Assembly: GCF_902506165.1 (NCBI RefSeq)
Contig: NZ_LR733817.1
Span: forward strand, 2,573,408-2,637,407
DNA: 64,000 nt
Source of the DNA: Bosea sp. 29B
Lineage (GTDB): Bacteria; Pseudomonadota; Alphaproteobacteria; Rhizobiales; Beijerinckiaceae
Direction of reading: 5' to 3'
Below, one piece after another: positions 24,489 to 43,091 of the stretch. The notes beneath the pieces are model-generated. The model did not search any database. It was not told the origin of the DNA and saw only the letters and a list, made by a program, of their open reading frames with translations. The translations under genes and the position numbers were made by a program. Within the stretch, counting starts at the first letter, position 1. Each line of letters begins with the position of its first letter.

Positions 24489-25042
24489 CAGACTTCCTCA
24501 ACCAGGGTCCGCTCGAAGACGACCTCCGCGCCGGCCGCGCCACGGCCAGGCTGGTTCTGGCGGCGCTTGCGAGCACCGAGCCGGAAGAGGTCGTCGCCAC
24601 GAGCATCAGCCGCGCCGATCTTTGGGCGCATGCCCGCCGCGTCCGTGGCGAGCCCGTCAACTTCGCCGCCGAGCGTGCGATCCGCACCGACCCGGAGGCT
24701 GCACGGCTCTACCGTCGCTTGCTTTCCTTCCAGGCGGTGGCGCGTAGCGAACTCGCTGCCGCGGCCTATGACAGCAGCGCGACCCACCGCCGCATCGGCT
24801 CCTTCGAGCTCGACGTGATCGAGGAGGACGATGCGCCGCCGGCCCTGGTCATCCAGTGCCTGTCGGAGACCGACCCCGCCCCGACCATGATCGAGGTCGT
24901 CTCGATCGAGGGCGTGGTTCGTCTGCCGCTGCCGGCGCCGGTCGACAAGCACATCGTCATCGACCTGCCGCGTCAGGACGCCGAGCGCGATCTGCTGCGA
25001 TTGATGCTCGCCAACCCGCTCGCAGGCGTTTATCTGCTGTAA
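24485..25042 (+). CDS. Unknown protein, 185 residues
   Basis: This is a soluble-looking protein of 185 residues with no recognised family. An N-terminal helical part includes DLWAHARRVRGEPVNFAAERAI, and a central conserved-looking block reads LYRRLLSFQAVARSEL. The C-terminal half is beta-rich, with a closing LLRLMLANPLAGVYLL. Its ATG overlaps the stop of the 518-residue gene by 4 bp, so the two are translationally coupled and likely work together. The next gene starts 66 bp downstream. Confidence 0.7.
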   Translation: MTDFLNQGPLEDDLRAGRATARLVLAALASTEPEEVVATSISRADLWAHARRVRGEPVNFAAERAIRTDPEAARLYRRLLSFQAVARSELAAAAYDSSATHRRIGSFELDVIEEDDAPPALVIQCLSETDPAPTMIEVVSIEGVVRLPLPAPVDKHIVIDLPRQDAERDLLRLMLANPLAGVYLL

Positions 25043-25108: not shown

Positions 25109-26599
25109 ATGATGGCGGCAGATCAGAACGTCAGACGCTCCGGCATCTTCGTCGTCGTGCCGACGACCGACCAGCCGATCATCCTGAAGAAGCTCGCCTG
25201 GTCGGCCCGCGTGCCGGTCTCGCGCGTCGTGCTTGCGACCGAGAGTTCCGAGGTTTGCGAGCCCTGGAGCACGCAGTACAGCAACCTGTTGCGCCCCGGC
25301 GAACCCTTGCGCCAGATACTCGGCCTGCCCGAAGGCGGCAGCTATCGTCTCGCCGCCTCTGGCTCGATCGACCAGGGCAAGAGCTGGATGGTGCCGACGC
25401 TCGCCGCCCATTGCGCGCTCACACATGGCGAGGCGGTGACGCACAAGGCCTCCGAGGCCAAGCTCGTGATCTGGGGCACCGGCGCGATCGACCTCTCGGT
25501 CGCCGATACGGCGGGCGAGGCGCGTGTCACCCAGCAGGAATATCACCTCACCACCAAGATCGACCGCTGCCGCCATCTCTTCGCCGATGCCGAGCATGGC
25601 GCCACCCCGGTGCTGGCGCTGGTGCCGCGTGGGGAGGAGGCCGAGCGCGCCGTCGCGATCCTCGGCAAGATTCTCGGTGGCCAGCCGCATCATATCGTGG
25701 TGGTCTCTTCTCTCGCGGACATCGCTGCGCCGATCGACCTCTTCCTCCGCAGCGGTGCTTTCGAACCGCAGGCCGTGGCGTCCGCGCCGGAACGGCCGGC
25801 AGCACCGGGATCGTCTTCGATGGCCCTGAGACCGTTCGAATCCAGGAGCGCCGAGCAGCCCGCGCAAACGGCAGCAGCGCAGCCGGAGCATACCCTCGTC
25901 CAGCCGCGTCCTGCCGGGGATGAACCCTCGATCGCCGACGTGCTGAAGAGCCCCCAGGCCTCGCGCTCACGTCGCCAGGTCCTGGGTGACAAGCCGGCAT
26001 CGACCTCTTCCTCGTCACGCCTCCCGTTGATCGCGGCTGCGGGCCTGGTGCTCGTCGCCGGTGCGGCGGGAGCGGGCTGGTACCTGACCCGGGGCACCGC
26101 GACCGAGGATCCCTATCAGGCGCCGCCGACGCTGACCCTGTCCGGCCCCGGCCCGACGACGACGCAGCCATCGGCAGGAACCCAGCAGGGCAAGCCCGCA
26201 CCGTCCCTCGAACAGCAGGGCGCTACGCCCCAAAGCGGGGCTGCGGTCGCGTCCGGCTCCGGCCTTGCCCGGCTGGTGCTGTTGTCGGCGCCAGCGGGCA
26301 GCAGCTGCGAGGCGCAGGTCTACGAGGTGCGCCCTCGCTACAGCGAAGCCTCGGTCGATGTCGGCGAGGCGCCGAATGTCCTGATCGATGGCCAGGACAT
26401 CTGCGGAATGGCGCTCGATCCGGTCGCGTCCGCCAAGGTCAAGTTCCAGGGCGGTACCGGGCCTGCAGTCGTCGCCTCGAAATCGACGCCGACCCGCCTG
26501 GTCTTCAATCCGACGGCAACCCGCGGCGGCATCGCCGCCTTCCCGGTGATCCAGTTCGAGGAGCCGAGGGCGCTCTCGGTCGAGATCAAGCGGCGCTGA
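25109..26599 (+). CDS. Unknown single-pass membrane protein, 496 residues
   Basis: The layout is an N-terminal cytoplasmic-type domain (about 1-230, with FVVVPTTDQPIILKKL and VIWGTGAIDLSVAD), then a proline/alanine/serine-rich linker. A single membrane helix follows at about residues 303-328 (LIAAAGLVLVAGAAGAGWYL). A second low-complexity linker leads to a C-terminal extracytoplasmic domain of about 110 residues with two cysteines (SSCEAQVYEV, GQDICGMAL). No family is recognised. The topology would let it connect a cytoplasmic partner to the periplasm. The start could be ATG 25109 or 25112; purines directly precede both. Confidence 0.7.
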   Translation: MMAADQNVRRSGIFVVVPTTDQPIILKKLAWSARVPVSRVVLATESSEVCEPWSTQYSNLLRPGEPLRQILGLPEGGSYRLAASGSIDQGKSWMVPTLAAHCALTHGEAVTHKASEAKLVIWGTGAIDLSVADTAGEARVTQQEYHLTTKIDRCRHLFADAEHGATPVLALVPRGEEAERAVAILGKILGGQPHHIVVVSSLADIAAPIDLFLRSGAFEPQAVASAPERPAAPGSSSMALRPFESRSAEQPAQTAAAQPEHTLVQPRPAGDEPSIADVLKSPQASRSRRQVLGDKPASTSSSSRLPLIAAAGLVLVAGAAGAGWYLTRGTATEDPYQAPPTLTLSGPGPTTTQPSAGTQQGKPAPSLEQQGATPQSGAAVASGSGLARLVLLSAPAGSSCEAQVYEVRPRYSEASVDVGEAPNVLIDGQDICGMALDPVASAKVKFQGGTGPAVVASKSTPTRLVFNPTATRGGIAAFPVIQFEEPRALSVEIKRR

Positions 26600-26732: not shown

Positions 26733-29700
26733 TCACAGCCCCCCGCGCGTCAGCCCGCGCCACAGGCCCCAGGGCGGCGGGTCGCTGGTCGGGGAGAGCT
26801 GGCGGATCGCCGCGAGCCGGCCGGCGATCAGGGCGATCGCGATCGAGGGCAGCGCCATCAGCATGTGATGCGAGGTCGCGGCGGCGATGAAGGTCATCGG
26901 CTGGCCCATCACCGGCAAGAGGCCGATCGCATTGCCCCAGGAAATGCTCCAGTGCAGCGAGAAGATCGTCGCGATGCCGACGAGGATGATCGCCGTGCCC
27001 TTGTTGGCGCCTTCCTGGGCCGAGCCCATGGCGCGCTCGCGCAACAGGCTGACCGCGAGGCAAAGCAGGCCGAAGATGGTGATCACCTCGGCGGCGAGCA
27101 GTGCCAGCACGGCCGGTAGGCCGAAGCGCACCGCCAGGAAAGTGGCGATGAAGTCGTTCTGCACCACCGGCAGGCGCACCAGGTCGCTGACGGTGAAGCG
27201 GCTCACCGCATCGTCCGCGACCTCGCTCTTGCGCTCGGCGATCGGCGTCGTCCGCGCCCCCGGCATCATCGCGCAGAGCGAGACCGGGGAGGGCGGCAGC
27301 TCGTCGAGCGCGCGGCGGATCTCGACCGGCGTCTTGTCGAGGCCGAGGTCGAGCCTGGCCAGCGTGCACGGCATCTCGGCGAGAGCGACCTTGGACTGCA
27401 GCAGCTGGAAGCCGAGATCGCGATGGATCACGTCCGGGCCGTGCTCCTGCGCGTTCGCCTGGGCGGTGCGCTTGTTGGCGTGGTCGAGGTCATACCAAGT
27501 GATCAGGCGCTCGGCCGGCTTGTTCAGCGAGCCGGCGCGTGCCTTCTCGAGCACCTCGATCGCCGCGAGCCGGTCCTTGGGCAGGGTCCAGAGGCCGGAG
27601 ATCCCATAGCTGACGAGATGCGGGAAGATGTAGATCAGCGCCGCGTTGATGCCGAGCAGGGTGACGAGGACGAGCGCCAGCACGCCGCCACGCGGCCAGC
27701 CGAGCCGACGAACCTTGCGCTGCGGCGCATCGGCCCGGCGCAAGAAGACGCGCATGATCGCGACCAGGCGCTTCAGCGTGCTCGGCAGCAGGAAGGCGAA
27801 GGCGAGCACCACGGTGGTCGCCATCATGATCAGCACCGGCGAATAGTCGCTCTTCAGGAACGGCACCGCGGTCTGGAACAGGATGAAGACGAAGACGGTC
27901 GCGAGGCTGACGCTCAGCCAGGAGACGTAGTGGCGCTGGTTGTAGAAGTAATCGATCCGCGAGAAGCCGAGGAAGATGTGCGCCAGCACCAGGACGAGCG
28001 CGATCTTGCCGACCTCGACCGGCTGGAAGCCGGCAACGCCGGTCTCGGTGCCGATCACGGCCCAGACGACGAAGCCGGTCAGGATCACGATCGCCGGCAC
28101 GGCACGCAGCAACTGGTCCTTGAAGCCGACGCCCATGAAGAAGGAGCGCGGCAGCGCCGCGATCGCCCGTTGCGGCTGGCAGGCGATCATCACCGCGACG
28201 ACCGGCACGAGGTCGAAGAACAGCAGCTTGTTCTTCTCGGCATGGATGGTGAAGTCGGTCTTCTCCGCATCGACGCCGAGCGCGAGCAGGGTCAGGCTGC
28301 CCAGGCAGCAGAGCATGACGAGGCCGAGCCAGGTCAGCCTGAACGGCGTGGTGAAGCGCGGCCCGATCATGATCGCGACGCAGGCGATCGCATAGCCGAG
28401 GATGGTGGCGTGCAGCGCCGACTCATAGGAGATCGAGGCGCCGCCGAGCCGCGACAGCTCCGGGGACAGCGCCAGCATCGTCGTCGCGCCGATCAGGGCG
28501 GTGGAACCGAGCGCGCCGGCCAGCCTGACCAGAATGGCGCTGCGCCGGAACAAGGTGGCGTGATGCATGGCCGAGAGCACGCCGAAGCCGGCGATGGCCA
28601 GTGTCAGCACCAGCCGCACGGCGCGCTCGGCGCCGTTGAGCGAAGAAAGCGGGTTGCCGATCTCGGCGGCCGACATCGGCTGGCGCGGCGGCGTCACCAC
28701 GGGCCGGACGCTCTCGGTCGTCGCGCTGGCGCGCAGCGCCTCGGCTTCGTCGGGAGCGAAGCGGTGGGTCTTGCTCAGCGGCGTCAGCCGCAGCGGCAGG
28801 CGGCCATTGGATTCGGCGCCGATGTCGACGGCATAGCGCGTGCGGCCGATGATCATGTGGCTCAGCCGCGACGGCCCTTCGGGATCGAGCTCCCAGGCGA
28901 TGTCGGTGAAGTCGGTGATGCGCTGGTTGCCGCGCGCGAACACGACCGGCGGGCGCGGCGCATCGACGGCGTCGCCCGGCGCCAGGAAATAGCTGCCGCC
29001 GCGGGCCATGATGCTGAGCGCCTTGAAGGGCAGAGCGGTTGCCGCGACATGCGCTTCCTCCCTGACCGAGCAGGTCAGGCGGCCGCCGATCGAGACGATG
29101 CGGTCCTCGCCGCGTTCGTCCGCGGCGATCATGCCGGTGACGACCTCGCGCACGCGGTCGGTGGCCTTGCGCGGCTGACAGATCGGTAGCGTGTTGCCGT
29201 CGAGCCTGAGCGTCGAGAGCGGGCCGGCCTGGTCGATGGTGAGCTTGCGAGCGCCCTGCTTGCCGGCTTCTGTCAGGGAGAGCGCGAGCCGCCCAGGCCT
29301 GGCCTCGTCGACCGCGATCGACAGGGCTCCGGCGGCGATGCGGTCGCCGGGCTGGAAGCGCCAGCGCGCCGAGAAGCTGCCGGCGCCGTTGAGATAGTCG
29401 AGCCAGAGCCGGCGGTTATTGGCGACGTTGCGGATGGTGACGCGGCCATCCGGCTGGCGGGTGAAGGTGACATGGCGCGTTTCGGCCGCGTCGAAGCGCT
29501 GCGGCTGCAGGAGCTCGCGCCGGCCGATCGTCACGGTCTCGCCGCGGGCGAGGGCAAGGTCGAGCCGCTCCAGGCTGACCACGGGCCGGGCGCTCTCGAT
29601 CAGATGGGTGGTGTTGTGCCACCAGAAGCCGAGCACGCCGAGGCAGAGCGCCAGCAGGACGAGGCCGGTCACGGCCCCGCCGGCGCCGCCGATGCGGATG

Positions 29701-29771
29701 CGCGGCAGGCGGAACGGCCGCAAGGTCAGCCAGCGCCCCATCAGCTGGCGCAGCGCGGTGGTCTCGTTCAC
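26733..29771 (-). CDS. Enlarged SEDS (FtsW/RodA-type) glycan polymerase with FHA-like N-domain
   Basis: This 1012-residue protein is much longer than the roughly 400 residues usual for FtsW/RodA. A first helix (about 28-48) is followed by about 330 residues of mostly beta structure. Within these, residues about 70-165 read like an FHA domain (GETVTIGRR, TRHVTF, DGRVTIRNVANNRRLWLD, PGDRI). The SEDS membrane core starts near residue 380. It contains FQPVEVGK near 583, KSDYSPVLIM near 640 (the Asp matching the catalytic one) and GLLPVMGQPMTF near 949. A loop of about 160 residues splits the core. GTG 29771 overlaps the PBP stop by 4 bp. Confidence 0.9.
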   Translation of the reverse strand: MNETTALRQLMGRWLTLRPFRLPRIRIGGAGGAVTGLVLLALCLGVLGFWWHNTTHLIESARPVVSLERLDLALARGETVTIGRRELLQPQRFDAAETRHVTFTRQPDGRVTIRNVANNRRLWLDYLNGAGSFSARWRFQPGDRIAAGALSIAVDEARPGRLALSLTEAGKQGARKLTIDQAGPLSTLRLDGNTLPICQPRKATDRVREVVTGMIAADERGEDRIVSIGGRLTCSVREEAHVAATALPFKALSIMARGGSYFLAPGDAVDAPRPPVVFARGNQRITDFTDIAWELDPEGPSRLSHMIIGRTRYAVDIGAESNGRLPLRLTPLSKTHRFAPDEAEALRASATTESVRPVVTPPRQPMSAAEIGNPLSSLNGAERAVRLVLTLAIAGFGVLSAMHHATLFRRSAILVRLAGALGSTALIGATTMLALSPELSRLGGASISYESALHATILGYAIACVAIMIGPRFTTPFRLTWLGLVMLCCLGSLTLLALGVDAEKTDFTIHAEKNKLLFFDLVPVVAVMIACQPQRAIAALPRSFFMGVGFKDQLLRAVPAIVILTGFVVWAVIGTETGVAGFQPVEVGKIALVLVLAHIFLGFSRIDYFYNQRHYVSWLSVSLATVFVFILFQTAVPFLKSDYSPVLIMMATTVVLAFAFLLPSTLKRLVAIMRVFLRRADAPQRKVRRLGWPRGGVLALVLVTLLGINAALIYIFPHLVSYGISGLWTLPKDRLAAIEVLEKARAGSLNKPAERLITWYDLDHANKRTAQANAQEHGPDVIHRDLGFQLLQSKVALAEMPCTLARLDLGLDKTPVEIRRALDELPPSPVSLCAMMPGARTTPIAERKSEVADDAVSRFTVSDLVRLPVVQNDFIATFLAVRFGLPAVLALLAAEVITIFGLLCLAVSLLRERAMGSAQEGANKGTAIILVGIATIFSLHWSISWGNAIGLLPVMGQPMTFIAAATSHHMLMALPSIAIALIAGRLAAIRQLSPTSDPPPWGLWRGLTRGGL

Positions 29772-32425
29772 TTCTTGTCTCCGAGCGCGGCGACCTTGCC
29801 GAGCAGGCCGGCCATCAGCCGGCCACAGGCGCGTCCGCCGGTTTCCCGCGTATGCGAGACCAGGCAGCTGAAGGCGACGCGTTTCCTGCCCGCGACATTG
29901 TCCATCCAGCCGGTGAACCAGGCCGAGTTCATGCCGTCGGTGGTATCGGCCGTGCCGGTCTTGCCGAAGATGCGCTTGCGGATATCCGGCGGCAGCGAGG
30001 CCATCACGCCGGCCGCAGTGCCGCCCGGCGAGTTGACGACGCCGTGGAGACCGCGCTGGGCGCCGTCGAGGAAGGGCTCGGCCTGGCGCGGGTCCATGCC
30101 GGGGATGACCGGCTTGCCCTCGTTCGGCTGCGGCGTCTCGGCGACGTCGGAGACGGGCTTCAGCACGCGCGGGCGGATCACCTTGCGGGCGCCGACCGAG
30201 CCGTAGATCGAAGCCATCGCGATCGGCGTCGCGCGCACACCCTGGCCGTAGGAGTTGGTGGCGAGGTCGATGCGGCGGGCGTTGCGCTTGTCCTCGACCG
30301 CGAGGTCGAGCGCCTCGCCGGTCAGGCGCTGTGCGCCCGGCACGATGCCGCGGGTCAGGTCGACGCCAGGCTGGGCGAGCGCTCCCGGCTGGGTGATCGG
30401 GTAGAGGTGCTCGGTCAGCTCCGCCAGGATCGTGCCGGTGCGGCCGGGCACCGTCGTCGGTTTTCCGCCGACCTTGCGCCCGTCCATGGTCAGCGCCATG
30501 CCGGCGAACCACAGGTTCGACGACTTGATCAACGCCTCGCAGAAGCCGATCTGCGCACCGCGGCCGGCATCGGGGCAGCCGCTCTGTGCCGGAGACAGGA
30601 TGCCGTAGTTGAAGCCGGCACCGCCATAGTTGGCGATGCCGACGCCATCGACATTGAGGCCGCCGCCCCCGCCGATGCCGAAGATCTGCGCTTGGCTGCC
30701 CGGCGGGGTGCGGCCGAGGATCATGTCGGGGAAGCGAGGCTGCTCGCGGATGCCGAGGATGCTGGCGAGGCCCGTCACCAGCTTGAAGGTCGAGCCCGGC
30801 ATGGTGTGGACGTCGCCGGCGCGCCAGCCATGTCCGGCGAGCGGCGAGTCGCTGTCGCGCCCGGTCGAGAGCGCCTGGATGTCCCAGCTGTGCATGCCTG
30901 GCACGAAATCGGGCCAGCTCGCCAAAGCGAGCAGCGAGCCCGGCTCGTCGCCGGCATCCATCAGCAGCACGACGGCGCGGCCGTCGCCCTGGTCCGGCGG
31001 CTCCTGCTCGGGGGTGAGGTTGACCGGCAGCGGACCCGGCTTGCGCGGGCGCTTGCCGCGGCCGAGACGCTCGCCCATATGGCCGTAGACCGCTTCCTGC
31101 ACCAGCTTCTGCAGGCGCGGCTCGATGGTGAGCGTCAGGTTCTCGCGGGTGCGGGCCCGGCCGAGCGCGGCCGAGAGCGAACCGACATCGCCGGCGCCAT
31201 AGCCGATCATCGCGGTCAGGCCGAGCTCGTCGACGATCGGCAAGGGGATGCCGCTGTTGTCGAGCGCCGGCGTGCCGTCGGAGAAGTAGAGTGCGCGCGC
31301 CGCGCCGCTGCGCCGCTGCGTGACCGCGCCGCGCCAGCCGAGTTCGCAGACCAGCTTGGTCTTGGCCCGCTCGCAATCGGCCTCGATATGCGAGGAGCGC
31401 CAGAGCTTGACCTTGCCATCCTCGCTCTGGATGCCGGAGCCGCCGAGGATCTCGCGGGCGCGGGGCGGCACGGCCCGGACCGGCTGGCCTTCGAAGCCGA
31501 TCTCGACATCGCGCCGGCGCGCGCCGGTGATGGTGAAGCGCCAGCCATGCGGCAGGCCCTGCTGCGCTTCTTCGGTGCAGCTGGCGAACTCGTCGCTGTC
31601 GGAACAGACGCGCTCGGCCGCGATGGCGAGGCCGGCGAGGCGCACGGTCTGCTCGTCACGCTTGGGGTCGAGGTTGACCCGCTCATTGCCGACGACGATG
31701 CGCGCCGGCTCGAGGATCATGTCGACGGTGACGCGGCGATTGCCGGCGGGCAGCCGCGTCGAGAGCACGAGCCTGTCCTCCGGCGCGCGCAAGGGGCCGA
31801 ACAGGGCCCAGTCCGAGAGCTGGTTGCCGCGGCGCTTGGCGAAGTCGGCGAAGTCGCGCGGCGGCGGCACCGCATTCGGCATCACGTTGAGCGGCGCGGC
31901 GAGGTCGGTGGTCTGGGCGACGCGCGCGGTCCAGCTCGCCGGGCGGCAGCCGGCCGGCACCACCGGCAGCGTCAGCGGCGTGCCGTCGGCGCAGCGCCGG
32001 TCGGGGGCGCGGTCATCGCGGGCGCCGGCGATCAGGAACGAGTTGTTCCAGGCCAGCATCTCCGAGCGGATCTGCGCGCCGGCTGGCAGGTTGCAGAGCC
32101 GGTCGAGCAGGGTCCGCGAGAACTCCTTGGTGCCCTGCGGCGTCGGCACGGTCAGCGAGGCGTCGTAGAGCGCTTCGCAAGGCTGCGAGCGGATGACCGG
32201 GCCGGCGGCATCGAGCCAGATCAGCCCGGTCGCGACGCCCTGCTCGAACAGCTCCTCGTTCGAACGGCTGGTCTCGGTGAAGTCGGGTTGTTTGATCCAG
32301 GCGCGGCTGGCGGCGAGCTCGCCGATCAGCCCGCCCGAAAGCCAGAGGAAGCCGGCGATGGTGACGGCGCCGACCGTGACGGCGGTGACGCTGCGCTTCA
32401 GGCCGCGGAAGAGCGGATGGCTCAT
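29768..32425 (-). CDS. Enlarged class B penicillin-binding protein (transpeptidase)
   Basis: This 885-residue peptidoglycan transpeptidase has an N-terminal membrane anchor (about residues 13-33) and a long extracytoplasmic region of about 400 residues before the catalytic domain. The active-site motifs are present in order: MPGSTFKLVTG (SxxK serine near 542), KSSNLWFAG (SxN near 634) and FGKTGTAD (KTG near 820). Class B PBPs are usually 550-700 residues, so the N-terminal extension is unusual. It overlaps the SEDS gene (stop/GTG) and the upstream 495-residue gene by 4 bp each. This is the classical SEDS-bPBP pairing. Confidence 0.93.
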   Translation of the reverse strand: MSHPLFRGLKRSVTAVTVGAVTIAGFLWLSGGLIGELAASRAWIKQPDFTETSRSNEELFEQGVATGLIWLDAAGPVIRSQPCEALYDASLTVPTPQGTKEFSRTLLDRLCNLPAGAQIRSEMLAWNNSFLIAGARDDRAPDRRCADGTPLTLPVVPAGCRPASWTARVAQTTDLAAPLNVMPNAVPPPRDFADFAKRRGNQLSDWALFGPLRAPEDRLVLSTRLPAGNRRVTVDMILEPARIVVGNERVNLDPKRDEQTVRLAGLAIAAERVCSDSDEFASCTEEAQQGLPHGWRFTITGARRRDVEIGFEGQPVRAVPPRAREILGGSGIQSEDGKVKLWRSSHIEADCERAKTKLVCELGWRGAVTQRRSGAARALYFSDGTPALDNSGIPLPIVDELGLTAMIGYGAGDVGSLSAALGRARTRENLTLTIEPRLQKLVQEAVYGHMGERLGRGKRPRKPGPLPVNLTPEQEPPDQGDGRAVVLLMDAGDEPGSLLALASWPDFVPGMHSWDIQALSTGRDSDSPLAGHGWRAGDVHTMPGSTFKLVTGLASILGIREQPRFPDMILGRTPPGSQAQIFGIGGGGGLNVDGVGIANYGGAGFNYGILSPAQSGCPDAGRGAQIGFCEALIKSSNLWFAGMALTMDGRKVGGKPTTVPGRTGTILAELTEHLYPITQPGALAQPGVDLTRGIVPGAQRLTGEALDLAVEDKRNARRIDLATNSYGQGVRATPIAMASIYGSVGARKVIRPRVLKPVSDVAETPQPNEGKPVIPGMDPRQAEPFLDGAQRGLHGVVNSPGGTAAGVMASLPPDIRKRIFGKTGTADTTDGMNSAWFTGWMDNVAGRKRVAFSCLVSHTRETGGRACGRLMAGLLGKVAALGDKK

Positions 32426-33909
32426 GGCGTCGCCTCCCGGAGCTCGACCACCAGCGGCCCGAGCACGAAGGGGCCGTTCGGCGGGATGGTGCAGGTTCCG
32501 GCCGCCTGCGGCTTGCGCCCGCCGAGGAGCCAGATGTCGCCGGCCGACTGCACCGCGACACCGCCTTGCGCGGCCGCGATGAAGCCGACTGGGTTGTGAT
32601 CATAGAGATCGTCGAGCCGCTCGACGATGCCTGAGCCGAACTGGATGCGCACGGCTTCGCCGAGCCAATCGAAGGTGCCGTAGCCGCGCGAGGACTGGTC
32701 CGGGCCGAAGGCGATCGCGGTCTGCTCGCGCGGCAGGCCGATATAGCCGAACTCGCCATCCTCCAGCATCAGCAGCGAACGGCGGCGGCCGTCGAAGCTC
32801 ATGCTCTCGGCGCGGAATTCGCCGCCGACCCGGCTGTAGCGCAATTCGCGCCGGTCGTAGCGGCGGGCGTCGCGGCCCTGCACGACGATGCTGTCGCGCT
32901 GGGCCAGCATCGCCGAGGACATCAAACGCCCGCCATAGCTGCGCTCGACCCAATAGCGCGCCATGCGCCGGCCGCCGAAATTCTCGGGGATGGCGAGGCC
33001 GGTGACGGCAAGATGCGGACCCTTGGGTGGCTGCGCCTGCAGGCGGCTGGGCCTGCGGTCGAGCGTGACGTCGACGAGCCCGAGCGATACCCGTCCGACC
33101 TGCGGGCGCACGCCGAGTATCTCGAAGCGGGCATCGACATTGCCGCCGGGCAAAGCCAGCGTCTCGACCTGGATCGCCTGGGCGCGCGCCTCCGGCGTCT
33201 GCGGCAGGGCGGTGAGCAATGGCAGGCCGCCGGCATCGCGGGCGGAGGCGTCGACCGGATAGCGGCCGAGGAAGAAGATCGTGCCGCCCGGCAGATCGGG
33301 ATGCACCGCCGGTGTCAGCATCTCGCTGCGCGAGAAGGAAAAGCGCGCCTGGCCGGAATAGAGCCCGCCCGGCGTGTTGACGCCGATGATCGGCTGGCCG
33401 ATCGCGGTCTGCGCATCCTGCCGGATCACCACCTCGCCATGCGGCAGCCGGTTGTCTGCCGGCGGGGCGTAGACGCCATGACCGAGATAGACCGCGACCG
33501 GTGCGGTCGCATGCAGGCTCTGCTCGACATGGACGGTGACGCCGATATCGGGGTCGATCACGTCGCGATAGCGCTGCTCAATCCGGTCCGCGAGAAAACG
33601 GCCGAGCTCCTGCGCGCCGGGCAATGCCTCGGCGGTCAGCACCACCAGCGAGGTGAAGGGCACGTCGATCGGCTGCGGGCCGCTGCCGCCATCGGTGAGC
33701 GCGATGCTGCGATAGCGGTCGATCAGGTCCTCCAGCGAGGCCTTGCCGTCCTTGGTCGGCTGGCCGCCGGCGGTCAGGCTGAAGACGGGCTTGCGCCAGA
33801 GGTTCTCGATGCCGGGCATGGCCTCGCCCGGCTCGCCGGCGACGGCGCGCAGGCTGGTCAGCCGCCGCGGGTCGTGCATCACCAGGTCCATGAGATCGGG
33901 CAGGGCCAT
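32422..33909 (-). CDS. Unknown 495-residue protein with FHA-like C-terminus
   Basis: This protein has no signal peptide or membrane helix. An N-terminal domain (about 75-200) includes FLADRIEQRYRDVIDPDIGVTVHVEQS. The middle is beta-rich (NVDARFEILGVRPQVGRVSL). The end reads GGVAVQSAGDIWLLGG...IPPNGPFVLGPLVVELRE, which fits the last strands of an FHA fold. The comparison with actinobacterial FhaA proteins, which sit beside rodA and pbpA, is suggestive but not proven by sequence here. Its stop overlaps the PBP ATG by 4 bp, tying it to the SEDS/PBP pair. The ATPase gene lies 125 bp upstream. Confidence 0.75.
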   Translation of the reverse strand: MALPDLMDLVMHDPRRLTSLRAVAGEPGEAMPGIENLWRKPVFSLTAGGQPTKDGKASLEDLIDRYRSIALTDGGSGPQPIDVPFTSLVVLTAEALPGAQELGRFLADRIEQRYRDVIDPDIGVTVHVEQSLHATAPVAVYLGHGVYAPPADNRLPHGEVVIRQDAQTAIGQPIIGVNTPGGLYSGQARFSFSRSEMLTPAVHPDLPGGTIFFLGRYPVDASARDAGGLPLLTALPQTPEARAQAIQVETLALPGGNVDARFEILGVRPQVGRVSLGLVDVTLDRRPSRLQAQPPKGPHLAVTGLAIPENFGGRRMARYWVERSYGGRLMSSAMLAQRDSIVVQGRDARRYDRRELRYSRVGGEFRAESMSFDGRRRSLLMLEDGEFGYIGLPREQTAIAFGPDQSSRGYGTFDWLGEAVRIQFGSGIVERLDDLYDHNPVGFIAAAQGGVAVQSAGDIWLLGGRKPQAAGTCTIPPNGPFVLGPLVVELREATP

Positions 33910-34034
33910 GGCGTCAGCTCACTTGGGCGGAGAAGGCGGGGTGATGGGATTGCGGTCGCGGCGGCGCGGGCCAAGGCCGCCCTTGTGAACGCCAGAGCCG
34001 TTTTCGCGTGCGGGCCATGACGATCCTGCGATCC

Positions 34035-37000
34035 CTAGTAGATGCGCGAGACGCGGTCGTGCTCGATCCGCCAGCAGGCTTCCCAGCCTTCATTGGCGGC
34101 GACGACCGTGACCTTGCGGCTCGTCGGCGACAGCACCTCGCTGATGATCTCGCAGACACCGAAGCCGTCGAGCCCTTCGCGATGGGCCTCGACGATCGAA
34201 TCGCCCTCGAGCAGCACCATCGGATCCTGGCCGTCGAGCAGCGGACGCAGGCGCGCGAGAGACTTGCCCTGCGGGTCGAGGCCCGGGATCGTGCGCACGA
34301 ACTGGAAGCGGCGGCCGAGATTGGCGCGCCCGCCGAGGCTCGGCGCCGCCTCGTCATGCTCGGCATGGACGCGCGCACCCGAGCCGATGTCGTAGCCGAG
34401 ATAATGGATGCGCTCGGCCGCGAACTCGGTGCGCAGGCCGGTGGCGCCGAGATCGCGCATCTGCACCGCCATGGCGGCGATGCCGAGCGGGTTCTTGTGC
34501 TGCACCGCGCTCCCGGCCATGTCGCCTTCGATGCCGAGGATGGCAGCCCCCGCGATCACCGCCTTCTTCATCGCCGCCGGCGAGAACGGACGCTGGAACG
34601 GGAAGGCGGCGCGGCTGGCGTCGGCTTCGGCCGCGATCGCCTCGAAGATCGGCGGCCAGAGCGCGGCGCGCCCGGTCGGAACCATGATCACGGTGGGGCG
34701 CTTGACCGGATTGGGCCCGGCGGCGCGAGCGAGGCGTGGCAGCAGGCCGCCAAGCACAGCACCGATCTCGGCAAGGTGCTGCGAGCCCTCGCCTGCGCCT
34801 TTCTCCAGGGCACCACGCGAGAGCTTCAGCACCAGCCGGCGCGTCCCGGCCTTGTCGGGCCCGTCGACGGCGAGCTGCAGGCCAGGCCGCCGCGTCGTGT
34901 CCGCCAATGCCGGCTCGTTCTGAGCGACATAGAGGCCAGTCGGATCGGCATCCGGCTTCAGCTCGGCAAGGACGATGTCGAAGGTCTCGTCGGCAGCGTC
35001 CGCATCCCAGCGATAGCGCGTGCCGGAACCTTGGGCCTTTTCGCTGAGGCGGGTGGCGAGACCGGCCTTGGCCTGCTTTACCGCGTTGCGCAGCCAGCTG
35101 CGCGCCGCCAGCGCGGCCGCGTCCTCGCGCTGAATGGCGCGGGCGAGCGAGGCTTCGGCGAAGGCCGGCTGCCAATGCGCGTCCTGGCCGTCCATCGCCC
35201 GGTCGACCAGCGTCGCGGCGATGCCGGTCAGCGCCTCGTCGATCAGGTCGCCGCCGACGGGCAGACCGAAGGTGGCGAGCGTCTGATGGTTCAGCCGGTC
35301 GCCGTCGCGCCGCAGCGAGGCGAGCGCGACGTCGCTGGTGCCGCCGCCGATGTCGAGCGTGACCAGCAGGGCCTCGCTCTGATCCGGCACGGCGGCGCGC
35401 ACCTCCGGCAGGCTGGCGACATAGCGCGCCGCGGCGACCGCTTCGGGCACGGTGACGGCTGCATCCGGGAAGCTGGTTGCGCCGGGGAAGAGGCGTTCAA
35501 GACGCTGGGCGAAGAGTTCGAGCGCAGCGCGATAGCGCGAGGCGATCTCGTCGCCGATGCCGCTCGGGCAGGAGACCAGGATGCGCGGCACCACCGGTGG
35601 CGGGGCATGGTCCTCGACGCGCAGTCGGTCCTCGCCGAGCCGCAACACATAGAGATCGACGAGTTCGTCGAGCACGTCGGCGACCAGCGGAGCGATCTCG
35701 ACGGTGTTGGTGGCGACGACGCGGTCGGTGGCGGCGTCGTAGCGATGCACCTGCTCGTTCAGCGTCAGCGATACCGCGCCGGAGGTCAGTGCGTGCTTGA
35801 GCGAGTCGATCCGCCGGCCGCTTTCGGGCAGGCCTGACTGTGGCGGCGGGGCGGGGGCCGAAACATCGTAGCGTCGCGCGAACGCCTTGAGACGGCGCGC
35901 CACGCTGGCGCGGTCGGAGCCGATCAAGGCGAGGTCGGGCAGGCTGTGCGGTGCATGATCGGCGCGCAGATTATTGCTGGAATCGAGGCCGACATGGCTC
36001 GGGATCAGCGGCGCGGCGCCGGCATCCTGCAGGGCTGCCTCGCCATGGCGCGGGTCGACATGGGCGGAAAGCCAGGTGCCGAGCGCCAGCGGCTTGATCT
36101 CGGTCGCCCGGCCGGCGGCGCGTGGTGCGCCAGACCAGATCGAGGTCGCGGACGCCCCGAGGTCGATGCAGATCGGCAGGCGGTGGACGCGGCGGCTATA
36201 GCGCAGCGGCAGGCTCGCCTGCGCAAAGGCCCGGCCGCCCTCGTCGCCGGCCTTGATCGCCAGCGAGATCGTGATCTCGCCGCGCAGCACATTGGCGCCG
36301 CTGGTGCGCACGGCGCGCGACAGCGTCGTCGTCAGGTTCTGCATCGGCACGACGGCGCGGCCGCGCCGGCCGAAATCGCCCTCGCGCACGATTTCGAGCG
36401 GGAACGGCGTCGGCGGCTCGGCGATCTCGCTCTCGCCCATCCTGCTGCTGACTTCGACGGTCAGCGGCGCGGTCCGGGTCAGCGGCCAGCGGCGCAGGTC
36501 GATCACCAGCCCGTCGCAGCGCACGATCGAGGTCTCGTCGTCCGGGTCGACCTCGGCATTGAGCCCGCCCGTGATCTCGAACTGGGCGGTTCCCCCGAGC
36601 GGGCAGGTGAAATGCTGCCCGGCGATGGTCAGCGCGACCTCGCCGCGGTTCTGGCTAAGGATCGGCACCGAGCGGGATTCGAGCGCGCTCGACCAGGGCT
36701 TGGCCGGACCGTCCGGATCATGGCCGGCGCCGTCCTGGCCGACCCAGCCGCCGAGCTTGGCGGTGAGCCTGACCTGCAGCGGCGCCCTTGGATTGGCCTG
36801 GCTGGTCTCGTCGACGAAGTCGAGCACGGCATCGCGCGTCAGCGTCACGTCGAGGCGCACCTCCTGGCCGGCCAGCGCTGGCGCGTCGGCGAGCCAGATC
36901 AGGTGCCGGCTGGTCGATGTGCCGGCGTCCGGGAAGCGCCTGAGCGAGACCGAATGATCCATCGGCGCGGCGACGCCGAGCGAAAGATGCTGCGCCTTGA

Positions 37001-37574
37001 TGCCGAAGCAGCTCGCCTCGATGGTCAGCCCGCGCCGGCCTTCGAGCACGATGTCCCTGGGGATGTCGATCGCGATCTGGCCGATCGCCAGCTGCTTGCC
37101 GGCCTGCAGCGAGTCCAGGTCGATTTCGACCGGCTCGATCCGCCATTCAGGTTGGGACGCGCCGGCGAGCGCGGCGATCTTGAGCAGGCGCCGTGGCGAG
37201 GCACGGGTGCCGCCCGCGGTTTCGACGATGGTGGAGAAGGCGATTTCGAGGCTGGCGTCGCTGTCGACATCGGCCTGGGCGCGATGGTTCGCCACCGCGC
37301 GCATCACCGCTTCGCGCTTGAGTCCCAGCACGAGCCGCTCGCCGGCCCGGACTGCGGCCTTGTCGAGCAGGGCATTGCCCTGCAGCCAGCCGATATCGAT
37401 GCCGCTCGCAAGGCTCGGCGCATGCGAGACCAGCGAGACCGTCACCGCCTTGACCATGTCCTCGGGCGCCTCGAAGGCAAGGAGGTCGATCAGCTCGCCG
37501 CTGCGGTCGAGCGCGATGGTCGCCGCGAAGCTGCCGAGCCGGGTTTCGAGATTGTAGCAGGGCAGAGTGGTCAT
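34035..37574 (-). CDS. Giant Hsp70/actin-fold ATPase (SrfB-like suspected)
   Basis: From ATG 37574 the protein has 1179 residues. About 460 N-terminal residues are beta-rich with no known motif. An ATPase of the Hsp70/actin superfamily follows: phosphate-1 CIDLGASATSIWSG near residue 470, phosphate-2 TLDIGGGTSDVALASL near 742, and an adenosine-type MVPTGRAALWPPIFEAI near 967. No membrane segment is seen. The two-part layout recalls the SrfB family; I cannot confirm that without a profile search. The start overlaps the stop of the 789-residue gene by 4 bp. The much longer open frame upstream is a shadow of that gene. Confidence 0.85.
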   Translation of the reverse strand: MTTLPCYNLETRLGSFAATIALDRSGELIDLLAFEAPEDMVKAVTVSLVSHAPSLASGIDIGWLQGNALLDKAAVRAGERLVLGLKREAVMRAVANHRAQADVDSDASLEIAFSTIVETAGGTRASPRRLLKIAALAGASQPEWRIEPVEIDLDSLQAGKQLAIGQIAIDIPRDIVLEGRRGLTIEASCFGIKAQHLSLGVAAPMDHSVSLRRFPDAGTSTSRHLIWLADAPALAGQEVRLDVTLTRDAVLDFVDETSQANPRAPLQVRLTAKLGGWVGQDGAGHDPDGPAKPWSSALESRSVPILSQNRGEVALTIAGQHFTCPLGGTAQFEITGGLNAEVDPDDETSIVRCDGLVIDLRRWPLTRTAPLTVEVSSRMGESEIAEPPTPFPLEIVREGDFGRRGRAVVPMQNLTTTLSRAVRTSGANVLRGEITISLAIKAGDEGGRAFAQASLPLRYSRRVHRLPICIDLGASATSIWSGAPRAAGRATEIKPLALGTWLSAHVDPRHGEAALQDAGAAPLIPSHVGLDSSNNLRADHAPHSLPDLALIGSDRASVARRLKAFARRYDVSAPAPPPQSGLPESGRRIDSLKHALTSGAVSLTLNEQVHRYDAATDRVVATNTVEIAPLVADVLDELVDLYVLRLGEDRLRVEDHAPPPVVPRILVSCPSGIGDEIASRYRAALELFAQRLERLFPGATSFPDAAVTVPEAVAAARYVASLPEVRAAVPDQSEALLVTLDIGGGTSDVALASLRRDGDRLNHQTLATFGLPVGGDLIDEALTGIAATLVDRAMDGQDAHWQPAFAEASLARAIQREDAAALAARSWLRNAVKQAKAGLATRLSEKAQGSGTRYRWDADAADETFDIVLAELKPDADPTGLYVAQNEPALADTTRRPGLQLAVDGPDKAGTRRLVLKLSRGALEKGAGEGSQHLAEIGAVLGGLLPRLARAAGPNPVKRPTVIMVPTGRAALWPPIFEAIAAEADASRAAFPFQRPFSPAAMKKAVIAGAAILGIEGDMAGSAVQHKNPLGIAAMAVQMRDLGATGLRTEFAAERIHYLGYDIGSGARVHAEHDEAAPSLGGRANLGRRFQFVRTIPGLDPQGKSLARLRPLLDGQDPMVLLEGDSIVEAHREGLDGFGVCEIISEVLSPTSRKVTVVAANEGWEACWRIEHDRVSRIY

Positions 37575-39940
37575 GCGTCCTGCCTCGAAGCGGCGGACCC
37601 GGAGTTGCCGCCAAGCGTGCTTCCCCAGTGATGATCGAGCCCGGTCAGCGCGGCGGCGGCGGCGAGATAGCGCGGCAGCATGTCGCCGCTCCCGGCTCTC
37701 AGCCTGCGATAGGCGGCGCCGAAGCCGGTATCCTGCGGGTCGGCGAGCGCTTTTCCGGCAAAGGGCACGGTGGCGAAGGCGGCATCGGCCTCGTGCCGTA
37801 CCAGCTGCGCCAGCAAAAGGCGTCCATAGCCGTCGAGCGTCTCGCGCAAGGCCTTGTTGCGCGCCGTGCCTTCGCCGGCGGGGCCGAGCAGCCCGTCGAT
37901 CGCGCCCGCGAGTTCGGCCAGGGCCGGGGCGAGGCTTTCGATCCGCGACAGCGAGCCGGCGAAATTGCGGCTGGCTGCCGCGAGCCGCTGCGCACCGCGC
38001 ACGGGATCGCCTGATCGATGTGCACGAGCGGCGAGGCCGGGACAGCCGGCCACCTCTTCCCAGCTGCGGATGAGCTCGGCCGCCGCCGCCGCCTGCTCGA
38101 CCTCGCGTCGCAGGGACGCGAAATGACCGTGCAGCAGGACGATCTCGCCCGGGGTCAATTCGCCGAGCCGCCGCCCGAGTTCGTCCGTGATCGCAGCCGG
38201 CTGGCTCGCCTGCCGGGCGGCCTCGGCGAGCTCGCTGCGCATGCGGGCGATCGCCTCGAGGCCTGGTGTCGGCTGCCGCTGCGGCTGCCGGCGCAATTCC
38301 AGCAGCAGGGCATCGAGCGGGGAGAGCCGGCGCTGCCCACGTTGCGTAGCGGCCGCAGCCATCGCCTGCTCGACCTCGATGGCGAGCCCGGTCTCGATCC
38401 AGCTCTGATGGACGCTGGCGGCGACATCGTGCAGCAGCCGCATGGCGCGCCGATCCTGCCCGGCCAGCGCCATCGCCTCGCGGGCGAGCGCCTGCGGGAG
38501 ATTGGGATCCTCGTACCAGGCGAGCAATTGCTCCAGCCCAGCTTCGTCCTGTGTCGATCCTGGCAAGGGCAGGATGAGGCGCGCGGCACAGGCACGCGCT
38601 GCGAACTGCGGCTGCGTCAATGCACGCTGGAGCATGGCGACCTGCTCGGTAAGCGTGCGCTCGCCGAGTTCTTCGATCCGGTCCGGGTCGATCCCGGTCG
38701 TCGTGACCAGCGCCTCCAGCAGGCTGACCGGGGTCGCGGGAGCCTTGCTGCGCGCATCGAGCAGGGCGAGGGCGCCGCTCGGCGTCCGGGCGAGGCGCAG
38801 CGCGATCTCGCCGAGGATGGTGCCGAGGCGTGCCGGCCTGGCGGCGTTCGTCGCGCGCCACAGCCCTTCGGCCAGTCGTGCTGCCGCGAGGGCGAGGTCG
38901 TCGTGCAAAGGCGCACTGCCTCCCGCGGCCGCGACGACGAGCGCGTTGCCGCCGCCCTGGCCGAGCGTCAGTCCGGTTGCGGCCGAGGCCGCGTAGCGCG
39001 CGCCAGGCGAGAGCACCGCAAAGGCGCCCTCCTGCCAGCGCAGCGTCAACGGGCTGCCGCTGACTGCTTCGCCATCGCCCGCCCAGACGAGCTGGCGCCG
39101 CGGTTCGGCGAAGACGATGATCTCGTCCGCCTCGACCCAGTCGGGGAGCGGGAGCACGCCACCTCCGGCCTCGGCGTGGGGCCGGAGCAGGCGAAAGCCA
39201 CGGCGTAGTGCAGCGACGCGGCCGAGGCCGGTCGCATCAACGTCGCGCTGATCGGCCGGCGAAGCTGCCAGCGTGTCGAGCTCGGCCTCGATGGCGAGCC
39301 GCAGGTCCTGGTCGATTTGCGCCAGGCTCTGCCGCGCCTCGCGCATCGCTGCCGGCAGATGCGCCACCAGCAGCCCTTCTGCCGCGGTTTCGGCCTCGTC
39401 GCCGGCGAAGGCGAGCGTCAAGCCGCCGGTCTCACCGCGGCTTGCTGTAAGCATGGTCGTGGCGGCGCGTTCGTCGTCCGGATGCAGGAAGGGGCCGGCC
39501 AGCAGCCGATAACCCTCGCTGTCCGAGCCGCTGGCCCGGTTGAGCCCGGAGGCCAGCATTGCCGCCAGCGCCGGTGGGACCGAGCCGGCGGGGCCAGTCT
39601 GCTGGGCCAGCCGGCCTTCATCGTCGAGATAGGCCTGCACCAGTGCCAGGCCGGCGGCGCTTCGATCGGCCTCGGCCAAGGACAGCTTGTCGTCGAGCTG
39701 CACCGGGATCGCGGTCAGCCTGCCATCGGGCTCGACAGTCACGGCATGGAGCACATGGCTGCCGGGAGGCAGGGTCGCGAACAGCGGCGCCGTCCCGGCA
39801 TCGGCGGCGGCGATCAGGCTGATACGGCCGCTCGCCTCTTCGGCTGCGAGGAAACGGGCCGGTGCGCTGTCCCGCCAGATCGCGGCGACATGACGTGAGC
39901 CGTCCCAGATGATGGCGACCGGCGCCACGGAAAGAGTCAC
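37571..39940 (-). CDS. Unknown 789-residue protein upstream of the Hsp70-like ATPase
   Basis: I do not recognise this protein. From GTG 39940 (GGAG 9 bp upstream) it has 789 residues; ATG 40021 would add 27. It has no membrane helix. The first 120 residues are beta-rich (SVAPVAIIWDGSRHVAAIW). The middle is alanine/arginine-rich and helical, and the C-terminal 300 residues look like long helices (AIARMRSELAEAARQASQ, HFASLRREVEQAAAAAELI). This suggests a scaffold or regulatory partner. The stop overlaps the ATPase ATG by 4 bp. It probably heads the minus-strand operon. Confidence 0.75.
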   Translation of the reverse strand: MTLSVAPVAIIWDGSRHVAAIWRDSAPARFLAAEEASGRISLIAAADAGTAPLFATLPPGSHVLHAVTVEPDGRLTAIPVQLDDKLSLAEADRSAAGLALVQAYLDDEGRLAQQTGPAGSVPPALAAMLASGLNRASGSDSEGYRLLAGPFLHPDDERAATTMLTASRGETGGLTLAFAGDEAETAAEGLLVAHLPAAMREARQSLAQIDQDLRLAIEAELDTLAASPADQRDVDATGLGRVAALRRGFRLLRPHAEAGGGVLPLPDWVEADEIIVFAEPRRQLVWAGDGEAVSGSPLTLRWQEGAFAVLSPGARYAASAATGLTLGQGGGNALVVAAAGGSAPLHDDLALAAARLAEGLWRATNAARPARLGTILGEIALRLARTPSGALALLDARSKAPATPVSLLEALVTTTGIDPDRIEELGERTLTEQVAMLQRALTQPQFAARACAARLILPLPGSTQDEAGLEQLLAWYEDPNLPQALAREAMALAGQDRRAMRLLHDVAASVHQSWIETGLAIEVEQAMAAAATQRGQRRLSPLDALLLELRRQPQRQPTPGLEAIARMRSELAEAARQASQPAAITDELGRRLGELTPGEIVLLHGHFASLRREVEQAAAAAELIRSWEEVAGCPGLAARAHRSGDPVRGAQRLAAASRNFAGSLSRIESLAPALAELAGAIDGLLGPAGEGTARNKALRETLDGYGRLLLAQLVRHEADAAFATVPFAGKALADPQDTGFGAAYRRLRAGSGDMLPRYLAAAAALTGLDHHWGSTLGGNSGSAASRQDA

Positions 39941-40143: not shown

Positions 40144-40716
40144 ATGACGGCAGAATCGGTTTGCTTCGCCGCCTTGCCCGCCGCGCTGCCGGCTGCGCTC
40201 GCTCAAGCGAGTGCCGGCGAGGACGTCACGCAGCGTCGCCTGGCGCTCTCCGACGCGTCCGGCGTGGACGCGCGCGAGGTCGATGCGAGCTTCCTGGCGC
40301 CGCGCCTGCTGCCGCGCCTGTTCCGCGATCCGGGCCAAGTGGCTTCGCAGGCCCAGGCGACCCTGCTGGATGCCGCGCGGCTGGTCGTCCTCCTGCCGGT
40401 GGGGCGTTATGACGACGGTGTCTGGGCCCCGATCATCGAGCGCATCCTGTCGGGGCTGGAGGCTGCGGCGGCGCGCCCGCGCGAGATCATCCTGGCCTGG
40501 AGCGGGGTTGAGCCTTTCCTGGCGCCGTTCGGTCGCCGGGCGCAGGAGGTCTGGAACGATCCCCGGCTTGTACCGGCCATGCTCGGTGTGCTCGAGCGGT
40601 CCGCGCGCTCGCTCCCGGCGGTGCTCGACAGGGCCGCCAATGTCCGTCGTGGCCTGATCCGGTTTGAGCCGGCGCAGGATGCGGGACCGGCGCGGGCCGC
40701 GCTGGCGCTGGCCTGA
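40144..40716 (+). CDS. Unknown 190-residue protein
   Basis: This is a small, mostly helical protein with no signal peptide and no family I can name. It has a central VVLLPVGRYDDGVWAPIIERIL and a C-terminal VLERSARSLPAVLDRAANVRRG. The chosen ATG 40144 follows GGAG at about 9-bp spacing; GTG 40141 is also in frame. It is divergent from the 789-residue gene (203 bp apart) and ends 16 bp before the convergent 40733 gene. Codon composition agrees with a real gene, but confidence is moderate. Confidence 0.6.
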   Translation: MTAESVCFAALPAALPAALAQASAGEDVTQRRLALSDASGVDAREVDASFLAPRLLPRLFRDPGQVASQAQATLLDAARLVVLLPVGRYDDGVWAPIIERILSGLEAAAARPREIILAWSGVEPFLAPFGRRAQEVWNDPRLVPAMLGVLERSARSLPAVLDRAANVRRGLIRFEPAQDAGPARAALALA

Positions 40717-42635: not shown

Positions 42636-43091
42636 TCAGATGCCGGACGCTTCGTTCGTCGCCAGATTGACCTCGACCTGGTCGGTGCCGGCGGCCTTGC
42701 CCTCGCGGGTCACGCTGCGCTCGACGACGCGGATGCGCTGGCCCTGGCTGTTGTTGTAGGTGCGCACGGTGCGGGCGCGGACCGTCACGGCCTGGCCGCT
42801 CGAGTTGCGGAAGCTCTGGGTGTTCGAGCCGCCCGAGCGCGCAGCGATATAGGCGGCCTCGCGGGCACGCTCCTTCTCGATCGCGTCGGCGATGACGAGA
42901 CCGGCGACACCGCCGATCAGGGCGCCGATCGCGGCGCCGCGCCAGCCACCGGCCGCGCCGCCGATCAGGGCGCCGGCGCCGGCGCCGAGAGCGCCACCGG
43001 TCGCGACGCGTTCCTGGGATCCCGTGCAGCCGCCGAGCGCGAGCGCGCCCGCGACGAGGATGGTTCCGGCCTTCAAGGTCTTGGCATGCAT
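42636..43091 (-). CDS. Glycine-zipper lipoprotein
   Basis: The 151-residue protein begins with a lipoprotein signal (ILVAGALALGGC, Cys near residue 22). A glycine-zipper segment follows at about 31-70 (GGALGAGAGALIGGAAGGWRGAAIGALIGGVAGL) that would pack in a membrane. The C-terminal region (SGQAVTVRARTVRTYNNSQGQRIRVVERSV) is beta-rich. Such proteins are outer-membrane or inner-membrane lipoproteins of unknown detailed role. The start is ATG 43091. The upstream 43092-43429 region is relatively AT-rich and must carry its promoter. Confidence 0.85.
   Translation of the reverse strand: MHAKTLKAGTILVAGALALGGCTGSQERVATGGALGAGAGALIGGAAGGWRGAAIGALIGGVAGLVIADAIEKERAREAAYIAARSGGSNTQSFRNSSGQAVTVRARTVRTYNNSQGQRIRVVERSVTREGKAAGTDQVEVNLATNEASGI

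Follow-up and report, generated by a model that had tools for sequence, protein, structure and literature searches.

Pairs of a SEDS-family polymerase and a class B penicillin-binding protein (PBP) are central cell wall synthases and antibiotic targets, and are known in elongation, division, and sporulation; the class B PBP usually has a size of ~600 residues. In actinobacteria, such a pair is encoded together with regulators in the gene order fhaA-fhaB-pstP-rodA-pbpA-pknA-pknB. Here we describe a locus for an enlarged SEDS/PBP pair in a 64,000-nucleotide stretch of the Bosea sp. 29B chromosomal contig NZ_LR733817.1 (positions 2,573,408 to 2,637,407; hereafter the window), which comes from a 6.33-Mb genome of the order Hyphomicrobiales, a synonym of Rhizobiales. 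The pair is encoded in one gene cluster with a very large Hsp70/actin-fold ATPase, and the cluster probably specifies an accessory peptidoglycan synthase machine that is nucleotide-gated and controlled by this ATPase; sequence shows the enzymes and the linkage of their genes, and the role is our proposal.

The core of the locus consists of five minus-strand genes, for which the positions and lengths (1012, 885, 495, 1179, and 789 amino acids [aa]) given by a first-pass annotation of this DNA were reproduced. Five genes make four junctions rather than the five counted earlier; three of these are overlaps of 4 bp, and the fourth is a gap of 125 bp. The core genes and their parts are as follows.

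26733..29771, minus strand: predicted SEDS polymerase, RodA-like but in a separate clade, 1012 aa, GTG start (PF01098, TIGR02210, hhalign)
26850..28292, minus strand: SEDS core, residues ~494-974 (profile-profile alignments), with Asp873 encoded at 27153-27155
28623..29594, minus strand: SEDS amino-terminal domain, residues ~60-383, between transmembrane (TM) segments 1 and 2 (hydropathy, one sequence)
29768..32425, minus strand: predicted class B PBP, PBP2-like, 885 aa, with an enlarged Cys-rich amino-terminal part (PF00905, motifs, PDB profile)
32422..33909, minus strand: p495, conserved core protein, 495 aa, no predicted TM segment (homologues at the corresponding position in Bosea-type and distant loci)
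34035..37574, minus strand: Hsp70/actin-fold ATPase, 1179 aa (profile against PDB; invariant nucleotide-motif residues)
34527-36170, minus strand: nucleotide-binding domain of the ATPase, residues ~469-1016, behind a 465-residue domain without an assigned family
37571..39940, minus strand: p789, 789 aa, found in Bosea-type loci only (orthologues at 59-91% identity)

Similarly to the Rod complex (RodA-PBP2), the Bosea locus combines a SEDS protein, nearer to RodA than to FtsW in 24 of 24 family members, with a PBP2-type transpeptidase, and an actin-superfamily ATPase is encoded alongside. In contrast to the Rod complex, the Bosea SEDS protein belongs to a separate clade and carries ~490 extra amino-terminal residues, the PBP is above the usual size, and in place of MreB there is an Hsp70-like ATPase that carries an extra domain of 465 residues; no relative of MreC, MreD, or RodZ turned up in Bosea, where no search was aimed at them. 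The actinobacterial fha-rodA-pbpA locus resembles the Bosea locus in pairing RodA- and PbpA-class partners with regulators, and the profile of the Bosea PBP matches mycobacterial PbpA. It differs in that p495 has no FHA match and no kinase or phosphatase was recognized in the Bosea unit; kinase and PP2C genes were seen nearby only at G676, one of the distant loci described below.

The window SEDS protein matched the Pfam family PF01098 at the family cut-off (26.4 bits, E 4e-6) and the RodA model TIGR02210 with 37.4 bits (E 1.5e-9), without reaching the equivalog cut-off of 336.7 bits. In profile-profile alignments (hhalign), a profile of 25 SEDS relatives aligned with a combined set of 25 RodA and 15 FtsW sequences at E 4e-11 (317 columns, probability 97%); the E values were 6e-9 with RodA alone (94 columns) and 4e-4 with FtsW alone (96 columns). 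The motifs QPVE..K, RLITWYDLD, FQLLQSKVALA, NDFIAT, and GLLPVMGQP of the new family were paired with QPSE..K, RVLTFLDPE, YHIIQSHITLG, TDFIFT, and GLVPVVGVP of the known proteins, respectively; this pairing used an earlier RodA set (30 records, five of them empty), and the cleaned set of 25 left the conclusion unchanged. Signature tests found the QPxE..K, PD-type, and GxxPxxGxPxxF motifs in this order. Asp873, the catalytic-type aspartate of the TDFIF-like motif that lies within NDFIAT, is invariant in all six aligned proteins and present in at least 90% of the 25 members. A RodA hidden Markov model (HMM) outscored an FtsW HMM in 24/24 members by 20 bits on average, with low scores throughout, and a quick tree with long branches placed the relatives in a group separate from both RodA and FtsW (the short row P0096 was excluded from the scoring and the tree). 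Based on these results, we concluded that the 1012-aa protein is a complete putative SEDS polymerase of a separate clade, nearer to RodA than to FtsW, and predicted to polymerize lipid II.

The ~490 extra amino-terminal residues comprise a TM segment, a ~320-residue domain, and then further TM segments, as judged by the hydropathy of one sequence. The ~320-residue domain, in which Cys198 and Cys234 are invariant among six aligned proteins, is taken as periplasmic, an orientation that we infer. Its residues ~77-157 aligned with an FHA profile made of 15 of the 22 FHA matches over 76 columns (hhalign; E 0.0013, probability 18.5%, the best of 16 queries), and Pfam searches gave no FHA match in the 25 SEDS members; an FHA-like nature of this stretch is suggestive only. 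As a separate observation, the window SEDS protein shares 88.7% identity with that of locus L020, with a minimum in residues 700-800, while the PBP, p495, and ATPase of the two loci are 95-97% identical; another relative, P0074, is 97% identical to the window SEDS protein.

The neighboring PBP, whose gene shares one of the 4-bp overlaps with the SEDS gene, matched the transpeptidase family PF00905 (E 3e-11), and its best TIGR model was pbp2_mrdA (TIGR03423; E 6e-16, far under the cut-off). All three active-site motifs claimed for it previously were recovered as S545-T-F-K548, S635-S-N637, and K822-T-G824, each invariant in six of six aligned proteins. By Pfam and alignment, the protein thus described has a transpeptidase domain with SxxK, SxN, and KTG and no GT51 domain, and Pfam gave no PBP_dimer (pedestal) match in the window PBP. 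In PDB searches its profile matched the structures of SpoVD, MrdA, and mycobacterial PbpA. The 885-aa protein is thereby assigned as a predicted intact PBP2-like class B transpeptidase.

The Hsp70/actin fold proposed for the 1179-aa protein is borne out by a match of its profile to DnaK in PDB (E 4.7e-5 over profile positions 726-826) and by the nucleotide-binding residues. The residues D471-G473-S475, D741-G743-D748, G774-G775-D779, K836, G968-R969, and G1009-A1010 do not vary among 17 aligned ATPases, and we take them to be the phosphate-1, phosphate-2, and adenosine motifs of Hsp70. The window ATPase had no HSP70 match in Pfam, and its listed PDB matches fall within the nucleotide-binding part. 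SrfB of the SrfABC system is a large protein of the actin/Hsp70 fold, and the Bosea ATPase resembles it in its very large size and comparable fold; it differs in that none of 19 ATPase family members gave a SrfB match in Pfam at E up to 1. In one Bosea genome (G028:C1:3744017-3747554; loci L007 and L009), the ATPase gene is broken near its 3' end.

Co-occurrence ties these genes together. The SEDS and PBP genes were accompanied by those for the ATPase and p495 in 9/9 Bosea-type loci, drawn from GTDB contigs, and in 6/6 distant genomes, one of them with the parts split over contigs, which supports the earlier proposal that an enlarged SEDS/class B PBP pair is genetically tied to an Hsp70-like ATPase. 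The same proposal had included p789 among the partners expected to co-occur; p789 was seen in Bosea-type loci only, with no relative detected in the distant loci, and its place in the conserved core is not supported. Several ~900-aa proteins of the distant loci begin with a WDG-like motif, and a comparison did not support homology between these proteins and p789. The FHA-like tail ascribed to p495 was not supported either: Pfam gave no FHA match in any of the 28 family members (limit E 5, with the HMMER filters discarding most matches above ~0.1), and the profile-profile alignment covered 21 columns at E 0.01. Pfam gave no family match for the window p495, and a leucine-rich variant repeat appeared in seven of the 28 members (best E 0.003).

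Gene order in all nine Bosea-type loci is cytochrome P450, glycine-zipper, p611, a small plus-strand gene, p789, ATPase, p495, PBP, SEDS, and p496. The dN/dS ratios of six genes fell in the ranges 0.06-0.22 (comparison with Bosea lupini) and 0.20-0.43 (comparison with L026, which is more distant), indicating that the genes are under constraint (purifying selection). Two further genes, p518 and the gene at 19849-20802, each occur in 6/41 Bosea genomes, exactly the six that hold the ATPase; in each of these six, the genes for the OmpA-domain protein, p317, and p185 are located between these two genes or next to them. The co-inherited unit therefore spans at least 19849-42568 and is wider than the five genes first described. 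Its additional members and possible edge are listed below.

19849..20802, minus strand: protein with a signal peptide by eye, marking the left boundary of the co-occurring genes (6/41 Bosea genomes, same six as the ATPase)
21102..21743, plus strand: OmpA-domain protein, putative peptidoglycan binding (PF00691, E 2e-16; synteny in six Bosea genomes)
21793..22746, plus strand: p317, signal peptide by eye (synteny in six Bosea genomes)
22932..24488, plus strand: p518 (6/41 Bosea genomes, same six as the ATPase)
24485..25042, plus strand: p185 (synteny in six Bosea genomes)
25109..26599, plus strand: p496, TM segment near residues 305-323 (9/9 Bosea loci, the L028 copy being cut by the stretch edge)
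40264..40716, plus strand: small protein that resembles the distant-locus P-loop GTPase in its second half, without a P-loop (hhalign)
40733..42568, minus strand: p611, signal peptide by eye (9/9 Bosea loci)
42636..43205, minus strand: glycine-zipper protein, possible unit edge (PF13488, E 2e-7; adjacent in 9/9 loci)

No Pfam family match was obtained for p611, and the matches of p317 in PDB were weak and generic, with no convincing relative.

The ATPase was found in 6/37 Bosea genomes and in none of the 24 genomes that represented as many other families of the order. Wider surveys, which scored two candidates per genome and may have missed some carriers, detected it in four of 397 genomes of the order (Bosea accounting for three), in two of 385 genomes of the class (one being that of the window), and in seven of 398 genomes of the phylum. 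The whole ATPase was matched in three of these seven, namely the own genome, another Bosea, and G312. The other four matches (G994, G364, G649, and G1129) cover only a generic Hsp70 stretch and were rejected; one in G994 is, by eye, a pair of DnaK-like genes with no SEDS gene recognized within 16 kb. Proteins at 46-51% identity came from metagenomes and other sources, one of them named Beijerinckiaceae, and the ATPase, SEDS, and p495 relatives in this range appear to share contigs, as suggested by P0021, P0088, and P0118, which all lie on contigs of 1,466,690 bases. In the collections as searched, the window SEDS, the L031 SEDS, and the L030 ATPase had no plasmid match, the window ATPase had no match in phages, and the window SEDS had none in viral contigs.

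At 19-31% identity, five distant alphaproteobacterial loci were recovered: L029, L030, L031 (Rhizobium sp. SG_E_25_P2), G312, and G676. Their genes, whose limits were set by a codon-score caller so that lengths are approximate, follow the order ATPase, a ~240-410-aa protein, p495, PBP, SEDS, and a ~725-795-aa membrane protein, the last being cut by the stretch end in L029. The pieces of the ~240-410-aa protein contain a TM segment in four of the five loci, the G676 piece as called having none, and the p495 of G676 is an uncalled open frame that matched the Bosea HMM with E 4e-13. A sixth distant genome, a Neomegalonema metagenome-assembled genome, has the same parts split over contigs. Taken together, the dN/dS ratios and the order retained at 19-31% identity in five other loci indicate that the arrangement is more than chance.

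The distant loci also add a P-loop GTPase, a ~270-610-aa protein, and a ~760-920-aa protein on the other strand, located upstream in three loci and downstream in G312 and G676. GxxxxGK[S/T] and DxxG motifs are present in all six GTPases, and DxxGE in five; PDB searches gave only weak, generic matches. The Bosea 40264-40716 protein, with orthologues at 68-99% identity in 9/9 Bosea loci, aligned with the region that follows the P-loop and DxxG motifs of these GTPases (hhalign score 32.4, probability 34%), compared with maxima of 21.2 for 60 column shuffles and 19.9 for nine other Bosea proteins. It seems to be a P-loop-less remnant of the distant-locus GTPase, and the Bosea unit thus looks like a form that has lost the GTPase switch. 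The flanking OmpA-domain and probably secreted Bosea genes had no significant match in the distant loci.

Other genes border some of these loci. At G676 (L056:1189-7875), genes for vWA, PP2C, kinase (with an FHA-like tail by eye), and CHAT-domain proteins adjoin the SEDS operon in a signaling-triad-like arrangement, and an IS3-type transposase gene, recognized by eye, lies in between. A phage-type integrase gene (L049:7384-7935) is located upstream of the Rhizobium sp. SG_E_25_P2 locus, which may be part of a genomic island.

The wall-synthesis genes elsewhere in the host genome were compared with this pair. One other gene of the FTSW/RODA family is present, scoring 238 bits with the RodA model, under the cut-off, and is taken as FtsW; ~8 kb from it lies one other class B PBP gene, which has a PBP_dimer domain and is taken as FtsI. 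The pair in the window is accordingly not the only one in the genome, a point raised in the first-pass annotation, which had also called it a third pair. The transpeptidase family further includes four class A PBPs and one carboxypeptidase. No RodA above the family cut-off was found in the host, compared with 36 of 41 sampled genomes of the class that have one, and no MreB: of the MreB-model hits, two exceed the cut-off and were identified by Pfam as DnaK and FtsA, and a third below it (L019) looks Hsp70-like by eye. Since RodA over the cut-off, MreB, and a further class B PBP were not found, the pair is the second in the genome and not the third. Passages of PMC8546619 report that Rhizobiales lack the Rod complex components RodA, PBP2, and MreBCD.

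In the machine that we propose, the SEDS and PBP proteins would form one inner-membrane synthase, by which lipid II would be polymerized and then cross-linked. The ATPase would act with p495 on the cytoplasmic side, where an ATP-driven conformational or assembly cycle may set where or when the synthase works, in a role similar to that of MreB toward RodA-PBP2. Coupling of the synthase to the wall and the outer membrane could be provided by its enlarged outer parts together with the OmpA-domain and probably secreted proteins that are co-inherited with it. In the distant form, the GTPase may serve as a second nucleotide switch, seemingly lost or replaced in Bosea. Given the rarity and patchy distribution of the gene set, its use is probably conditional, in envelope repair, stress, or conflict, rather than in housekeeping growth. 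As the ATPase is missing from 31 of the 37 Bosea genomes searched, deletion is likely tolerated, and control of a SEDS synthase by an actin-fold ATPase could be studied apart from the essential machinery. Among the matches listed in literature searches on SEDS, FhaA/RodA, SrfB/SrfC, Bosea, and SEDS fusions or defense (titles and abstract starts), none describes the system. It would also give Bosea a pair that stands apart from the housekeeping ones and has an ATPase of its own, within an order reported, in passages of PMC8546619, to be without the Rod complex.

Several results weigh against this proposal. Known SEDS proteins are reached mainly through profiles. In single-sequence Pfam searches (limit E 5), PF01098 was found in only 17 of the 25 SEDS members; the SEDS profile matched no SEDS structure in PDB below E 2; and the G312 member had negative scores with the RodA HMM as well as with the FtsW HMM. 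Neither p789 nor the plus-strand genes were detected outside the Bosea type. We infer contact between the ATPase and the synthase from gene order only, and conditional use from patchiness only. A more far-reaching version, in which the nucleotide-gated machine is neither elongasome nor divisome, is tentative, and we hold it as doubtful. In this version, a SEDS protein of a separate clade, with a periplasmic domain that is FHA-like, would work with a dedicated PBP, an Hsp70-type ATPase drive, and, in the distant form, a DO-GTPase-like switch, and the machine would be what a response to envelope conflict or damage deploys. An ATPase of the actin superfamily, distinct from MreB and FtsA, would then be wired to a SEDS synthase.

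Three other explanations were weighed against the same data. The locus might be an alternative Rod-like elongation system that replaces MreB-RodA-PBP2 where these are lost, as would agree with the RodA/PBP2-type scores of the SEDS and PBP proteins, with the canonical RodA and MreB not found in the host, and with the Rod complex reported missing from Rhizobiales in passages of PMC8546619. The ATPase occurs in only 6/37 Bosea genomes, however, so that growth is independent of the unit, and G082, of the same family as the carrier G312, has a canonical RodA; replacement is improbable because most of the searched Bosea genomes do without the unit. Production of local peptidoglycan by the SEDS/PBP pair for a larger envelope machine for secretion or adhesion, encoded by the probably secreted, OmpA-domain, and other genes, would explain the co-inheritance of these genes and the adjacent glycine-zipper gene. 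No secretion or adhesin family was matched among the proteins scanned, though, and the absence of significant matches for the OmpA-domain and secreted genes in the distant loci also speaks against this explanation, to which we assign a low probability.

In a GTPase-centered conflict or defense system, the GTPase and the Hsp70-like ATPase would sense or transmit an envelope attack, and the SEDS/PBP output would wall off or repair the damage. This would fit the rare and patchy distribution, the signaling genes adjoining one locus and the integrase near another, and the glutamate after DxxG in five of six GTPases, which recalls the Walker-B glutamate of DO-GTPases stated in a passage of PMC7159879. 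DO-GTPase/GAP1 systems, as described in passages of that paper, further resemble the distant loci in that Hsp70 genes occur in part of both. Also on the side of this explanation are Pfam DO-GTPase2 matches of the GTPases, below the cut-off (E 0.07 and 0.06), and very weak PADLOC matches, linking p495 to DpdC and the ATPase to PDC-M61B (each E 0.005 over ~50 residues). In contrast, GAP1 was not detected in the two ~600-aa proteins scanned (E up to 1), ten Bosea proteins had no convincing PADLOC match, and SEDS and ATPase were unmatched in the plasmid, phage, and viral collections. The Bosea unit has no P-loop GTPase, its GTPase-like gene being devoid of the P-loop. A peptidoglycan synthase as output of DO-GTPase/GAP1 systems is not found in the passages of PMC7159879, where 'penicillin' and 'FtsW' have no occurrences in the text. 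We thus consider a conflict system rather unlikely as the explanation and prefer an accessory, ATPase-controlled synthase.

Beyond the edges of the unit, the next gene outward of 19849-20802 encodes a dehydrogenase (18763-19734) and does not lie within 1.5 kb in two of the six genomes. On the other side, the cytochrome P450 gene (43430-44815) is kept beside the unit in all nine Bosea loci.

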